From Nitrospirota bacterium (lineage in GTDB: Bacteria > Nitrospirota > Thermodesulfovibrionia > Thermodesulfovibrionales > Dissulfurispiraceae), in assembly GCA_040752355.1 (NCBI GenBank), contig JBFMHE010000025.1, positions 1-46,784 of the forward strand: 46,784 nt of DNA, read 5' to 3'. The position numbers were made by a program, and so were the translations under genes. The notes under the pieces are model-generated. The model made no database searches. It was not told the origin of the DNA and was given only the letters and a program-made list of their open reading frames with translations. Positions 9,246 to 30,477 of this stretch are shown in pieces (the first letter of the stretch is position 1; each line of letters opens with the position of its first letter).

Positions 9246-10457
9246 CTACTTATCCAGAGATACTTTCTTGGTTACCGAATGAATAGGATATTTGTTGTCG
9301 GGGTTGACTGCCTCGTAGACGAGGTCTACGGTGACATCCGCAGCCTTTACTCCTTCCGGAAGATCGAACTCGACGGTCTCCACTTTGGTCTGAAGGGGCT
9401 GCAGGCTGGTGTCGCGCAGGTTCGCAACTTTCCACTGGGCGCCGTACTTCATCTTCATGTCGCGACAGTTCGTCGCCTGAGGATGGAAATGCCGTTCAAC
9501 CTTGCCGATCTCTTTGCCGTCCGACGACTTTGCGGTCACTACCATGACCACTCTGTTATGGGACGGTCAACCGTCGGGTATCCTGTGGCCCGCGGTCGTA
9601 TTGATCCTCGTGTTCACCACGATCTTGGGGAAGTACGTGTTTGCTTTCCTCAGCCACTCATACGCGTACGCCTGGACATCGAGATTGATGGCATTGGCCA
9701 GAAGCTGGGAAGTCTGTTTGTCGTCATTGAAATTCGGGGCGATAAGGTGATCCCCCTTTTGCATATGACACTCCTGGCACGTCTTTGTCCCGCCGTTGGA
9801 TACATAGTTGTGGAGATAGCTCCCGTAGAGGTTGGCGCACTGGAATGCCTGATCGAACTCGAGATTAGGACCGAGTCCGTGGCACTGACCGCAGTAGACC
9901 GAGTCGCTGAAGATAGCGCTCTTCTTGACCTTCGTGAATGTCTTGTCGGGATGGGACGCGATATCCCTTGTACTGTAAAGGACCCCCTTCTCCGGCTCGC
10001 CGAGCTCCCGCTTGTGAATAATCGCCTTGGTATTATGGCAGACGGTGCAGGTGATCTGGAGTTTCGCGACTTTGGCTGAATCCTTTGCGAGCAAGGCCTC
10101 GGTCAATTCGACCGCGACCGAGTCCTCGGCAGAGGTGATAGCTTGAGGAAGATGGCACTTGAAGCAGGGAAAATTCTTGATCGTCATCTTCTTCGGGTCA
10201 TCCTCAGAAAAAGCCGTGCTGCCTTTCTCCCCTTTTTTCAATGCAAGGGGCGTCAGCATCAATCCGCCTTTTACCCCCATAAGCGGTCTGGCGTGGTGCG
10301 ATTTCTCCCACTGAGCGTAGATTTCCGCATGGCACCCCTTACAGCCGGATGAGTCGTACATTTTGGCCAGCTCGTCGATGGTCTTCGCCTTCTCTGCGTT
10401 CGCTGTCAAAGGCAAAACGATCAAGAGAACAGCGAGCATCACTAATGCTACTCTCAT
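9246..10457 (-). CDS. Pentahaem c-type cytochrome with in-frame UGA (probable selenocysteine, codon 297)
   Basis: Exported electron-transfer protein. The signal peptide (about 1-21, LLIVLPLTANA) precedes five CXXCH haem sites at 39-43, 98-102, 137-141, 189-193 and 227-231. The frame reads TTAGHRIPDG, meets TGA at 9569-9567, and continues without another stop for 106 codons as PSHNRVVMVVTAKSSDGKEI to the terminal KKVSLDK. AGHRIPDG is the GHxxPxG landmark seen in multihaem cytochromes, and the downstream part reads as the beta-rich continuation of the same domain, so the TGA falls inside a domain. Directly after it lies a two-stage hairpin with SECIS geometry. The full product would be 403 residues. 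A strong AAGGAGGAGG site precedes the ATG. Alternatives are a nonsense mutation, or a 296-residue product plus a dead tail. Confidence 0.75.
9517..9566 (-). promoter_or_regulatory. SECIS-like hairpin directly after the in-frame UGA
   Basis: Immediately 3' of the UGA, CCGUCC (9566-9561) pairs with GGACGG (9522-9517). A symmetrical 9/9 internal loop follows. Then GUGGUCA (9551-9545) pairs with UGACCGC (9538-9532), seven pairs with one G-U, closing the hexaloop UGGUAG (9544-9539). The apical loop starts 22 nt after the UGA and has G as its second base. Known bacterial selenocysteine insertion elements have a stem starting just after UGA, a short apical loop with an early G, and similar spacing. 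Confidence 0.7.
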
Positions 10458-10711: not shown

Positions 10712-10735
10712 GGCGCTCAGACCGGTCCGAGCGCC
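10712..10735. terminator. Hairpin overlapping the 3' end of the ABC ATPase gene
   Basis: GGCGCTC at 10712-10718 is complementary to GAGCGCC at 10729-10735, with a 10-base loop. The structure overlaps the stop codon of the ATPase gene and lies upstream of the separately promoted cytochrome gene. No T run is evident, so the call is tentative. Confidence 0.35.
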
Positions 10736-11403
10736 CCGTTGCTCATACGGAGCTGCCGCCCTGCCAGGCGCGCGAGATCGGTATTATGGGTGATCATGAT
10801 GAAGGTGATGCCCCGCTCCTCGTTCATCGCCTTGAAGAACCTCACCATTTCGGCTTCCGTCGCCTCGTCCAGGTCACCCGTCGGCTCGTCGGCGAGGATG
10901 ATCTCGGGGTCGTTCATGAACGCCCGCGCTATGGCGACGCGCCGCTGCTGGCCGCCCGACAGCTGCGAGGGGTAAGCGTTTACCTTGTCGCCGAGCCCTA
11001 CCCTCTCCAGAAGCCCCACCGCTTTATCATGCGCCTGAGCGCCGGTCCCGCCGGGCATGAAGACGAGCGGCAGCAGGACGTTCTCACGGGCCGTCAGCAT
11101 CGGCAGGAGGCTCGCAAACTGGAACATGAACCCGACCTTCTCGCACCGGTATGCCGAAAGCTCATCGCTCGTAAAGCGATAGATATCCCTCCCCTCGAAA
11201 AGGACCCTGCCCGATGTGGGCGCTGTCATGCCGCCGATCATCGAGAGCAGTGTCGTCTTGCCGGAACCGGAATGGCCCACGACAGATACGAACTCTCCCT
11301 TGCCCACGGCGAGCGAGACCCCGCGCACCGCCGTGATGGCTTCGCGGTCGACCGGATAGGTCTTGGTCACGCTCTCGATGCTGAGCTGGTCCACGTCATT
11401 CAC
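10717..11403 (-). CDS. ABC transporter ATP-binding protein (MacB/LolD-like)
   Basis: ATPase subunit of 228 residues for an FtsX-type permease complex. Walker A is GHSGSGKTT, the Q-loop region is GFMFQFASLLPMLTARENV, the signature is LSGGQQRRVAIARAF and Walker B is ILADEPTGDLDE, with the switch His in MITHN. This arrangement belongs to the lipoprotein-release/macrolide-export/NosF-like groups. The frame starts at GTG 11403 and overlaps the 3' end of the permease gene by 8 bp, so the two subunits are translationally coupled. Substrate is unknown. A role with the upstream copper-handling genes is possible but is only a neighbourhood inference. Confidence 0.92.
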   Translation of the reverse strand: MNDVDQLSIESVTKTYPVDREAITAVRGVSLAVGKGEFVSVVGHSGSGKTTLLSMIGGMTAPTSGRVLFEGRDIYRFTSDELSAYRCEKVGFMFQFASLLPMLTARENVLLPLVFMPGGTGAQAHDKAVGLLERVGLGDKVNAYPSQLSGGQQRRVAIARAFMNDPEIILADEPTGDLDEATEAEMVRFFKAMNEERGITFIMITHNTDLARLAGRQLRMSNGALGPV

Positions 11404-12592
11404 CCTTCATCGCGGCGAGCGGCTCCATGCGCTTGAGCCGCTGCAGGGGCGCTACCGCACCGACGACGCAGACCCCTGTCCCGATCAGGAGTCCGAACAG
11501 GGCGATCGCCGCTCTCTCGAGGGAGCCGAGATCGGTCGTCACATGCTTCATGATCGAGAAGCCCTTCGCCAGCAGCATCGAGAGCGATGTCCCCGCCCCG
11601 ATCCCCGCTATACTGCCTATGCCTCCTATGATGAGTATCTCGATGAGGAAGAGCTTCACGACCTGGGACTCTCTCGCGCCTATGGCCCGCATGATGCCGA
11701 CCTCCCGGGCCCGCTCGTTGGCTACCGCCGAGAAGACCGCCCATGCCAGGAACACGGAGAGCACGGCAGCGAGCACTACCGTAACGGAGAAGACGCGGTT
11801 GATATCCGCCAGGGTGTCGAGCACACCCTTCCCGAGGTCCTTCCGGGCCACGGCGTCGACCTCGATGATCGAGTCCTCGATGAGGCCGGCCACCTTCCGG
11901 GGGTCCTGTCCCTTCTTCACTTTCGCGAAGACGATCGATATCTCTCCCGGCCTTATCTTCGCCTTGCCCTGCTTGAGGATGTCGTCGATGTTCGCTTGAT
12001 CGATGAAGATGGCGTAATCGAGCCCGGTCCCGGTCTTTTCGAGGACGCCGACCATTTTGAAGATGCTGCCGAAGAGGATGCTGTCGACCTCCATCGCGCC
12101 GATATCGATATTGAAGGCAGACTCGCTGCCGACGATCGCCTCGCCCTTCTGGAGGCGGCGTCCCAGTTTTTTGGGAAGCCAGGGATTGACGACGAAGTCC
12201 GTCTCCTGGTCGAAGGCGATGACTACCGCGTCCGGCACATCGCAGCAGACCCCGGCGATGGTGGTGAGATAGATCTGGGGCGAGACCGCGGCGATGCCGT
12301 CGATCTTTCGTATCCGCTCGATGACAGCGCGGTCCATGAGGAACGACTTCACCTCGTTTTCGAGCAGGAAGTCCTCTGCAGCGCCGCGCGAGCCGGTCGG
12401 CAGGATGAGCAGGTCCGCTCCGAGGCGTTCAGAGGCGAGCCGTATGCTCGAATCGACACGCCGGATGAACGAGAGGGCGAAGACGAGGAGTGCAACGAGC
12501 AGCCCGATCGCGACGATCAGGATCGTCGTCCGCAAGGGCTTCCTCTTCACATTCCTCGCGGCGACGGAAAGCAGGGTGAATTCCTGAGCCAT
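11396..12592 (-). CDS. ABC transporter permease, FtsX/MacB-type
   Basis: Inner-membrane permease of 398 residues. It has one N-terminal helix (about 17-40, TTILIVAIGLLVALLVFAL), a large extracytoplasmic domain (about 45-270), then three helices in the C-terminal FtsX domain. That domain contains the typical NERAREVGIMRAIGARESQVVKLFLIE segment (broken here: NERAREVGIMRAIGA, then RESQVVKLFL). It pairs with the overlapping ATPase. Upstream lies a perfect 19-bp hairpin, and a TATAAT only 8 bp from the ATG suggests its own, possibly leaderless, transcript. The extracytoplasmic domain gives no clue to the substrate. Confidence 0.9.
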   Translation of the reverse strand: MAQEFTLLSVAARNVKRKPLRTTILIVAIGLLVALLVFALSFIRRVDSSIRLASERLGADLLILPTGSRGAAEDFLLENEVKSFLMDRAVIERIRKIDGIAAVSPQIYLTTIAGVCCDVPDAVVIAFDQETDFVVNPWLPKKLGRRLQKGEAIVGSESAFNIDIGAMEVDSILFGSIFKMVGVLEKTGTGLDYAIFIDQANIDDILKQGKAKIRPGEISIVFAKVKKGQDPRKVAGLIEDSIIEVDAVARKDLGKGVLDTLADINRVFSVTVVLAAVLSVFLAWAVFSAVANERAREVGIMRAIGARESQVVKLFLIEILIIGGIGSIAGIGAGTSLSMLLAKGFSIMKHVTTDLGSLERAAIALFGLLIGTGVCVVGAVAPLQRLKRMEPLAAMKGE

Positions 12593-12600
12593 AGAGTCGT

Positions 12601-12606
12601 ATTATA
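12601..12606 (-). promoter_or_regulatory. TATAAT -10 element close to the permease start
   Basis: A perfect TATAAT on the minus strand ends 8 bases before the permease ATG (12592), so a transcript would start at or next to the start codon. No good -35 box is seen because that position falls in the terminator hairpin. No ribosome binding site precedes this ATG. Confidence 0.4.
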
Positions 12607-12616
12607 AAGGATTCGG

Positions 12617-12661
12617 CCTATTCTTTCTATGCGGCTCATCAGGCCGCATAGAAAGAATAGG
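12617..12661. terminator. Perfect 19-bp hairpin between haem protein and ABC permease genes
   Basis: Arms 12617-12635 and 12643-12661 are exactly complementary around a 7-base loop. On the minus strand the stem is followed after about seven bases by CCTTTATAAT. It probably ends the transcript of the propeller-like haem protein and separates it from the ABC genes. Confidence 0.75.
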
Positions 12662-12681
12662 GATAAGGAAAGGTACGGCGG

Positions 12682-13827
12682 CTACTTCCTGTAGTTGGCG
12701 TCCAGGCCGCAGAGGGTCGCCGGCTTGTCGCCGAGCCCCATCTCCTTGTGGCAGGCAAAGCAGACCGAAACCGACTTGCCCACGATCTTCTTCTCTCCTG
12801 CATCGTAAAGCATCACCACGCCGTCCATGATGGTCTTGCCGGGTATCGGCTTCCCCTCGACGTCGCAGGCTTCGGCCGTGCTCCTGACCGTCAGCACCGC
12901 GTATTTATCGTCGGGGGTCGGCATCGCGTCATGCACCTCGCCGCTGTTGGGGATCATCTTCTCGTCGACGAGCTTGAGCGTCTTTGCATCGAGCAGCCAT
13001 ACCCGGTCGCCTGCGGACTGGTAGAGATACTTATCGTCACTGGTGAAATACTGCCTGAAGGTGAGCGTCTTTTTCGGCTCTCCCGTGTGGGTCGCCCTGG
13101 CGAGCACCTTCCACGTGCCCTTCTCGAGCGCCGGGAGATCGACCATGACGAAGTCTACCTTGCCGTTCGGTTTCCCCTCGCTCTTCTGGTTGAGGACGAC
13201 GACGAACTTCTTCATGTCGTTCGAGTTGATGCCGTGTACGAAGAGGTAGGAGTCGGGGTCCTTGTAGCCGATATCGCTCACGAACATGCGGTGCTTGAGC
13301 TTCAGGTCCTTCTTGTCGAAAACATCCACATACCCCTCGGCGCCCATGAACACCGGCAGGAAGGAACTCTTGGTCTGTCCCGAAGCGCAGTAGAGCGGCA
13401 TCTTCTTTTCGCCGCCGGTCGCCCTCTTGTCGGGGTCCATGGCGACGTCCTTGATCACGGCGCCGGTCTTCAGGTCGGTCTTCCCGACATGCTGCTTGCC
13501 GTCGGGGTCGAGCTTGTAGGTGGACCAGAACATGACGTTCCGATCATTGACATCGATGCGCGCGTCATGTGTTGCATGGGTTGCCTTCGTGCCGATGTCG
13601 ATCTTGTCGAGGGCGGTGACCTTTATCGGGTCTTCAGCGTTATTGGGATCGATGGTAACATCGGCTTTGGCGAAATGACCGCCCATACCCGCTACATAAA
13701 TAACCGACGAATAGGTCTTCTTCGCCGCTGTCGCCACCGGCGTCTTCGCGTCGATAACGCTGAACGCGAGATACCCGGCAAACGCCATTACCATTACCCC
13801 CAGAACCGCCAGAAAACGTTTTTGCAT
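12682..13827 (-). CDS. Exported propeller-like protein with one C-terminal haem c site
   Basis: I do not recognise a named family with confidence. The 381-residue product has an N-terminal signal or anchor helix (about 4-26). A body of repeated beta-strand segments follows, with phrases such as RNVMFWSTYKLDPDGKQHVG, GEVHDAMPTPDDKYAVLTVR and SDDKYLYQSAGDRVWLLDA, typical of beta-propellers. One CXXCH (CFACH, 356-360) lies close to the end. Histidines recur at blade-start positions (HATHDAR, FVHGIN, EVHDAM), reminiscent of metal-binding propellers, but there is no CuA motif as in NosZ. It lies downstream of PCuAC and NosL genes, so it may receive copper. It has its own promoter and a strong terminator. 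Confidence 0.6.
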   Translation of the reverse strand: MQKRFLAVLGVMVMAFAGYLAFSVIDAKTPVATAAKKTYSSVIYVAGMGGHFAKADVTIDPNNAEDPIKVTALDKIDIGTKATHATHDARIDVNDRNVMFWSTYKLDPDGKQHVGKTDLKTGAVIKDVAMDPDKRATGGEKKMPLYCASGQTKSSFLPVFMGAEGYVDVFDKKDLKLKHRMFVSDIGYKDPDSYLFVHGINSNDMKKFVVVLNQKSEGKPNGKVDFVMVDLPALEKGTWKVLARATHTGEPKKTLTFRQYFTSDDKYLYQSAGDRVWLLDAKTLKLVDEKMIPNSGEVHDAMPTPDDKYAVLTVRSTAEACDVEGKPIPGKTIMDGVVMLYDAGEKKIVGKSVSVCFACHKEMGLGDKPATLCGLDANYRK

Positions 13828-13927
13828 TACTTCCTCCCCTTTGGAATTATTATTCGTTCACCCGGTCATCATGCAAGAGTGAAGGGTGGTGCTGCACTGT
13901 CTGCTGCAAAGATGCTCTGCGTTATTG

Positions 13928-13956
13928 ACATTAACTCACCTCTGGACTAAAGTCAA
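13928..13956 (-). promoter_or_regulatory. Sigma-70-type promoter of the propeller-like haem protein
   Basis: On the minus strand TTGACT (13956-13951), a 17-bp spacer, then TAATGT (13933-13928). It lies about 100 bp upstream of the ATG at 13827 and just beyond the stop of the PCuAC gene. The spacer region contains the small palindrome GACTTTAGTC, which could be an operator half; I see no clear named regulator site. Confidence 0.5.
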
Positions 13957-13977
13957 CCTGAAATTTTGGGTTTAGCT

Positions 13978-14502
13978 TTATTCCCTGGAACCGATACGGG
14001 ACTTTCCCGCCGAGAGCCTCACCGGCACCGTAAGGGGCCCCGTCTTCCGGAAAGACAAGGTGAGCATGAACTCGTGCCCGCTCTTCAGGTCTCTCGACAT
14101 CTTGAAGATCATGAGGTGGAGGCCCCCTGGCTTCAGCTCGACCGTCTCCCCTGCCGGGACCGGGATCTCCTCCCTCTTGACCATCTTCCCCTCCCTCGTA
14201 TCGTGCAGCTCCACGCGGGCGCCGGGGAAGTCCGCCTGCGCACCGAGGAGCATATCGTCGCCCTCACCCGAATTCCTGATCCTCATGAAGACAGAGCCGA
14301 CACCGAGGAAGACCGGCGAGAGGACCGCCTCCTGCGCCTCGATAGTTATCTGCGGAGCTCCCTGCTGGGAACCCCTTCCGCACCCTGCAAGAGCTGCAGC
14401 AGCGATGATCGCTGCCGTCGCAAAAAGGAAGCCCCCCCGGGCAAGGGCACGCCTTGCCGCGACCCGAAGCCCGGAGCGCGGGGTTCTCCCGGAGTCATGC
14501 AT
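13978..14502 (-). CDS. PCu(A)C-type periplasmic copper chaperone, lipoprotein
   Basis: Copper chaperones of this family hold Cu(I) in the periplasm and hand it to copper sites such as CuA. The chosen start MHDSGRTPRSGLRV gives 174 residues. A basic N-terminus and a hydrophobic stretch end in the lipobox LAGC, so the mature protein should be membrane-anchored. The cupredoxin-like body carries the family ligands: M in DDMLLGA, H in VELHDTREGKM, and GLHLMIFKM. The ATG lies 4 bp after the NosL stop with GAAAGGG upstream. An open frame reaches 38 codons further up but overlaps nosL and lacks family similarity. Confidence 0.85.
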   Translation of the reverse strand: MHDSGRTPRSGLRVAARRALARGGFLFATAAIIAAAALAGCGRGSQQGAPQITIEAQEAVLSPVFLGVGSVFMRIRNSGEGDDMLLGAQADFPGARVELHDTREGKMVKREEIPVPAGETVELKPGGLHLMIFKMSRDLKSGHEFMLTLSFRKTGPLTVPVRLSAGKSRIGSRE

Positions 14503-14506
14503 CGCG

Positions 14507-14965
14507 CTATTGCCCTTTCGGAAGAGAGAGCGTGCGGTAGGGGACCACGCTCCCCTTTCCCGTTTCGGCGACAAAGCGTTCGGCGCTCTGTCTGTCCTTG
14601 AATGCGACAATGCCATATCCCATCGGGGTCTTTACCCCGGAATCGACGACGAAAGAGGCGGCCTCGATAGCGACCGGCTCCCCGGTGGAGAAGTCGAACA
14701 CCTCCGCATTGGTGTTGAACTGGAGCTCCTTGGTGGCGCACTGCTCCGCCCTCCAGAGGAGAGCGCAGCCGATATCGTCGAAAGCGACCTTATCCGTACT
14801 CTTGGTGTCGACCACCGAGAACCGCTTGTTCTGCCCCTCGATCGACATATTGCATGCCGTACAGACCGCCGGGGATGCCGGCTCGGCCCCTGCCGGGACA
14901 GGAATAGCGGAAATGCATGACAGGATCATAACGAGAAACAGCCAGACCTTGCGATGTGCCTTCAT
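14507..14965 (-). CDS. nosL: NosL-family copper-binding protein
   Basis: NosL proteins are periplasmic Cu(I)-binding proteins that help deliver copper to nitrous oxide reductase, though the family also occurs elsewhere. The 152-residue product has a signal peptide ending near PAGA. It has the VCTACNMSI metal-binding motif (about 34-42), the conserved FDDIGCALLW, and MGYGIVAF near residue 115. It is the first gene of a pair with the PCuAC chaperone. No nosZ, nosR or nosD is visible in the window, so its target may be the downstream haem-bearing propeller or a protein elsewhere. Confidence 0.85.
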   Translation of the reverse strand: MKAHRKVWLFLVMILSCISAIPVPAGAEPASPAVCTACNMSIEGQNKRFSVVDTKSTDKVAFDDIGCALLWRAEQCATKELQFNTNAEVFDFSTGEPVAIEAASFVVDSGVKTPMGYGIVAFKDRQSAERFVAETGKGSVVPYRTLSLPKGQ

Positions 14966-29991: not shown

Positions 29992-30477
29992 TCAGTATTC
30001 TTCGAGATGATACCACTCGGCGTTTTCGAGCCAGGTGAAGGGCCGGGAGACGAACTCGATGATATTCTCGAGAATGAGGTAGTGCCGCTGCTCTTCGTCC
30101 GCGATCTTCAGGAGTGCCTGCTTCTGGCGGGGATCTGCCACCTCTCCCGCCTTCTCACGGTAGAAGTCACGGGTCTTCTCCTCGATCTGCTGCGCCCTCG
30201 CGTAGAGGTCCACTTCCGACCCGTTGTCGGTTATCGCTTCACCCTCGTCCCGCATCTTGACGAAGATATTCTTCACGTCGTCGAGGATCGGGGAGTCGGG
30301 CACCTCGACCGGCTCGTTCCGCTTCATCTTGCCGAAGAGCTCATAGTGCTTCACCTCGGCATCGGCGAGCATCGTCAGTATATTCTTCAGCCCCGCATTG
30401 ACCACCCTCCCGGAGAGCTCGCGGTAGTAGAGCTCCCCGTCCTTCTCGAGCTGCATCGCATAGTCATAGATATCCAT
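29992..30477 (-). CDS. Ferritin-like (rubrerythrin-type) protein without rubredoxin domain
   Basis: Four-helix-bundle protein of 161 residues. Carboxylate/His positions fit a di-iron site: LEKDGELYYREL in the first helix, DAEVKHYELF in the second, QQIEEKTRDFYREK in the third and DEEQRHYLILENI in the fourth. No CXXC rubredoxin motif is present. Such proteins usually handle peroxide or iron in anaerobes. The start MDIYDY at 30477 is chosen because GGAGGTGAT lies just ahead; a second in-frame ATG lies 18 bases further up. It converges with the lctP gene; the MITE-like element lies upstream of it. Confidence 0.87.
   Translation of the reverse strand: MDIYDYAMQLEKDGELYYRELSGRVVNAGLKNILTMLADAEVKHYELFGKMKRNEPVEVPDSPILDDVKNIFVKMRDEGEAITDNGSEVDLYARAQQIEEKTRDFYREKAGEVADPRQKQALLKIADEEQRHYLILENIIEFVSRPFTWLENAEWYHLEEY

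Follow-up and report, generated by a model that had tools for sequence, protein, structure and literature searches.

A gene for a pentahaem cytochrome c on the minus strand of a Nitrospirota contig is interrupted by one in-frame UGA, which raises the question of whether this codon is a stop, an error or a selenocysteine (Sec) codon, and what kind of protein the complete frame would encode. A first-pass annotation of the window (the whole 46,784-nucleotide stretch of DNA analysed) had proposed Sec from the letters of the gene and from a hairpin beside the UGA. Here we examine this proposal using family profiles, homologous loci, RNA folding, the rest of the genome and a structural model.

Reading frame and family assignment

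The frame layout claimed in the first-pass annotation was borne out when the minus strand was re-read. The product carries five CXXCH sites (residues 39-43, 98-102, 137-141, 189-193 and 227-231), after which come GHRIPDG, the TGA, 106 sense codons and TAG (Table 1). Its N-terminus is a probable signal peptide. Translated with UGA as Sec, the 403-residue product scored 445.4 bits against the NCBIfam profile for "multiheme c-type cytochrome (seleno)protein ExtKL" (NF040886), for which the membership threshold is the curated cut-off of 250 bits. A six-frame search of the organism's own genome with this profile gave a single match above the cut-off (438.9 bits) with exactly one TGA within it.

The product also matched PDB entries 9wt8 and 9wt9 (MccSep and MccSep U325A; E about 1e-70, residues 17-357 aligned), and the profile alignment to MccSep covered nearly the whole length. 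The Sec297 column is X in the 9wt8 chain and A in the U325A mutant 9wt9, and thus corresponds to MccSep U325. All of the features that define ExtKL/MccSep members were found: a score above the cut-off, five CXXCH sites and UGA or Cys after GHxxPxG.

Table 1. Positions of the gene, its UGA, the RNA element and the neighbouring block in the window.
Feature	Position	Strand	Remarks
ExtKL/MccSep-type pentahaem cytochrome c selenoprotein gene	9246..10457	minus	403 residues with UGA = Sec297; NF040886, PDB 9wt8/9wt9
In-frame UGA = Sec297	9567..9569	minus	GHRIPDG-U-PSHNR; Sec/Cys-only column in 97 loci; aligns with MccSep U325
Probable N-terminal signal peptide (MRVALVMLAVLLIVLPLTANA)	10395..10457	minus	By eye from the sequence and the model's hydrophobic helix 2-18
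Upper hairpin of the SECIS-like element	9532..9551	minus	7-bp stem, loop UGGUAG; covariation; mostly lost in Cys forms
Whole SECIS-like region	9517..9566	minus	Includes lower stem CCGUCC/GGACGG, lineage-variable
NosL, PCuAC, propeller-like protein, MacB/FtsX permease and ABC ATPase genes ahead of ExtKL	10717-14965 (upstream block)	minus	

Conservation of the Sec297 column

Standard annotation splits the gene into two ORFs, one of 296 aa and, downstream of it, one of 101 aa that starts with GTG, as would be expected if the UGA were a genuine stop and ExtK (296 aa) and ExtL were separate genes, or if the gene were decaying; Geobacter GSU2937/GSU2936 were also once annotated as split. We aligned homologues across the TGA, as had been suggested, and only TGA or Cys codons were found at this position. 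Among 97 homologous loci, the codon was TGA in 77, TGC in 12, TGT in 8 and any other in none; the 20 Cys loci were picked deliberately among stop-free matches, so the TGA:Cys ratio is not a frequency, while the absence of a third residue stays informative. The loci were drawn from same-phylum genomes, genome contigs and chosen stretches; the gene of the window itself is among them, as are a few near-duplicates. This distribution (77 TGA, 20 Cys, 0 other) lifts the Sec reading above chance. In the search of same-phylum genomes, nearly all of the matches above the cut-off hold exactly one TGA or no stop.

Conservation extends on both sides of the codon. In 60 aligned sequences, 25 columns are invariant, including all haem motifs (five CXXCH in 60/60), C207, H237, H291 and column 297, and the frame downstream of the UGA is conserved in sequence among homologues. 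The nearest relatives come from Nitrospirae/Nitrospirota assemblies, with identity up to 83%. A genuine stop is very unlikely given a UGA kept at one column in 77 loci, Cys codons giving an uninterrupted ORF in the other 20, and a conserved downstream frame. A sequencing error or a pseudogene, with a codon that is truly TGC or TGT, agrees poorly with the presence of TGA at the identical codon in independent genomes of many genera and assemblies.

Two more distant paralogue groups (L093-L096 and L097-L102) have Cys at the column in the surroundings IPDGCLW and IPHGCAV, compared to IPDGUPS in the Sec form. TGA and Cys paralogues stand side by side in some genomes (e.g. G156, G232 and G268).

The RNA hairpin downstream of the UGA

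Folding confirmed the geometry that had been described by eye: a CCGUCC/GGACGG stem, an internal loop, a 7-bp upper stem and a UGGUAG loop starting 22 nt past the UGA. The minimum free energy of the downstream RNA was -23.2 kcal/mol (z -3.6), and none of 200 shuffled sequences was as stable. The claim that such pairing is unlikely to arise by chance is upheld by the comparative data, but is weak as far as stability alone is concerned. The window holds 16 TGA codons with 100 open codons on each side, and one of the others (29994, minus strand) folds more stably (-24.2), so hairpin stability alone is not diagnostic; as sole proof of Sec it was dropped. The TGA at 29994 is flanked on either side by long open frames and followed by a stabler fold, and there is no evidence for Sec at that codon; it warns against calls based on a hairpin only.

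Structure counts were made on 60 distinct TGA sequences, with RNA positions counted from the U of the UGA. The core pairs of the upper hairpin (20-24/33-37) are standard in 59-60 of the 60, and compensatory changes in this core include G-C to A-U (3) and C-G to G-C (1). Over the whole structure, 80.0% of the cells were paired (76.4% when shuffled, at most 51.3% when slid), and the covariation score was 0.109 compared to 0.060. Only around half of the Cys sequences form core pairs 21-24/33-36. Cys forms also had the weaker fold downstream of the codon (mean z -0.17; TGA forms, -1.18; Mann-Whitney p 0.008, indicative only, as related sequences are not independent). The lower stem is present in part of the family only: 26/60 sequences lack pairs 6-51 and 9-48, the two that vary most, and where the stem is kept, changes on both sides occur. 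Of the two-stem SECIS proposed in the first-pass annotation, the upper hairpin thus stands as the conserved element, covarying and largely lost in Cys forms, while the lower stem varies between lineages. An Rfam scan of the gene matched no relevant family. The gene nevertheless has a SECIS-like hairpin directly 3' of its UGA, as expected of a bacterial selenoprotein.

Retention of this hairpin in the TGA forms and its loss in the Cys forms also speak against a sequencing error, the chance of which we consider negligible. Both the real stop and the sequencing error were rejected on the comparative data.

Selenocysteine machinery in the genome

The genome search that had been proposed recovered selA, selB, selC and selD. 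The selA match scored 614 bits, selB 356 bits (above its cut-off) and the tRNA-Sec gene selC 68 bits against 47, with anticodon UCA. Two selD genes were above the cut-off, on own-genome contigs C1 and C7 (L078 and L079), each with one in-frame TGA. The better-scoring SelD (L078) reads SSCAGUAAKF across its TGA, where the U is presumably the active-site position; the Sec-making enzyme SelD thus appears to be itself a selenoprotein. In the search of relatives, selA was found in 19/21 genomes. The organism therefore carries the Sec machinery expected for a bacterial selenoprotein, which is a further point against a genuine stop.

We are almost certain that the gene is a Nitrospirota member of ExtKL/MccSep, in which SelB-dependent insertion of Sec297 would yield an exported redox protein that carries five haems and has its Sec next to a conserved haem-ligand-type His. 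The family assignment, the Sec/Cys-only column, the conserved, covarying RNA pairing and the sel genes are shown directly, and support the Sec interpretation first given to the UGA. In this organism, the hairpin just past the UGA would recruit SelB-GTP with Sec-tRNA-Sec, Sec297 would be inserted at the UGA and translation would continue to the TAG. We infer that the product is then exported to the periplasm and loaded with five c-type haems, with Sec297 acting as a catalytic or ligand residue. The substrate may be an oxyanion such as selenite, or the protein may serve general electron transfer.

Structural model and possible role of Sec297

The AlphaFold2 model, built on the alignment of 60 sequences, had a mean pLDDT of 89.6 and a pTM of 0.83. 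Its best full-length structural match was the pentahaem cytochrome c552 of Thermochromatium tepidum (5ze8; VIA-align Z 22.7, 306 aligned, rmsd 3.2), which was also matched in a Foldseek search; MccSep entries were absent among the Foldseek and VIA-align matches (structures to April 2026). The C-terminal region of the model (253-403) resembles beta-sandwich domains, and Sec297 would lie in this domain, directly past GHxIPDG.

Four His residues outside the CXXCH sites are conserved (H55 in 56/60, H169 in 58/60, H237 and H291 in 60/60). This pattern suggests bis-His coordination for four of the haems, with Sec297, the invariant C207 or both possibly taking part in the pocket of the fifth. His291 of GHxIPDG probably binds a haem on its distal side, and a redox or substrate site is probably formed by Sec297, perhaps together with Cys207.

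The T. tepidum cytochrome shares the overall fold but is a more distant relative (22% identity) and has Ala at the Sec/Cys column, indicating that the pentahaem fold needs neither Sec nor Cys there. The His of the GHxxPxG-like motif is kept in 5ze8 (PHAMPTGAP). The Ala of c552, the multihaem architecture and the existence of Cys versions would all suit a protein that only transfers electrons and has no substrate chemistry, its Sec serving a structural purpose or as a haem ligand. Such a reading, which concerns the role of Sec only, is possible but the less probable one, as the whole family strictly retains Sec or Cys, Cys207 is invariant as well, and Sec is usually catalytic. A study of cable bacteria (PMC11976967) counted the related sPHC proteins as potential catalytic cytochromes that have pentacoordinated haems.

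Gene neighbourhood

The gene is followed by a convergent ksgA and preceded, on the same strand, by genes for an ABC ATPase, a permease of the MacB/FtsX type, a propeller-like protein that matched no Pfam family, PCuAC and NosL. Six other loci (L046, L050, L058, L062, L068 and L070) show parts of the same order. Among the neighbours within the window, extHIJ and extMNOPQS genes are not adjacent to the ExtKL gene. The conserved Nitrospirota neighbourhood is a lead on function. The Sec cytochrome might have been recruited here into a conserved NosL/PCuAC/propeller-like/MacB-FtsX ABC setting rather than the porin/electron-conduit cluster of Geobacter, and might serve a distinct redox function, possibly copper- or envelope-linked, although we regard this as a speculative and rather unlikely proposal.

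Comparison with known systems

Whether the family had already been catalogued, a point left open by the first reading, can be answered positively. NF040886 is listed in the prokaryotic selenoproteome (PMC13188914, review), a 'cytochrome c family protein' is listed as a selenoprotein (PMC9312934, review), and structures have been solved (9wt8-9wtc); the gene is therefore not new. It reads UGA as Sec, yet is an ordinary, well-supported ExtKL/MccSep member, and adds no new kind of biological system. What it offers is a clean comparative case for ExtKL/MccSep, in which the column admits only Sec or Cys and the SECIS-like hairpin is retained by the UGA forms alone, and an illustration that true Sec codons can be found by reading raw sequence.

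A close counterpart is ExtKL of Geobacter sulfurreducens (GSU2937-GSU2936), a cytochrome c with five haems in which a Sec encoded by UGA divides ExtK from ExtL, and the product gives a full-length match to the ExtKL profile. It is a predicted selenoprotein split by UGA (PMC5877670, PMC6148476), and preliminary results pointed to its involvement in selenite reduction (PMC5877670). MccSep (PDB 9wt8, 9wt9, 9wta, 9wtb and 9wtc) belongs to the same family and has the identical Sec column (U325), but comes from another species. The genomic setting differs from the Geobacter ext cluster (extHIJKLMNOPQS type), as the gene lies between ksgA and the block that encodes the MacB-type ABC transporter, the propeller-like protein, PCuAC and NosL; this difference is the one mildly novel point.
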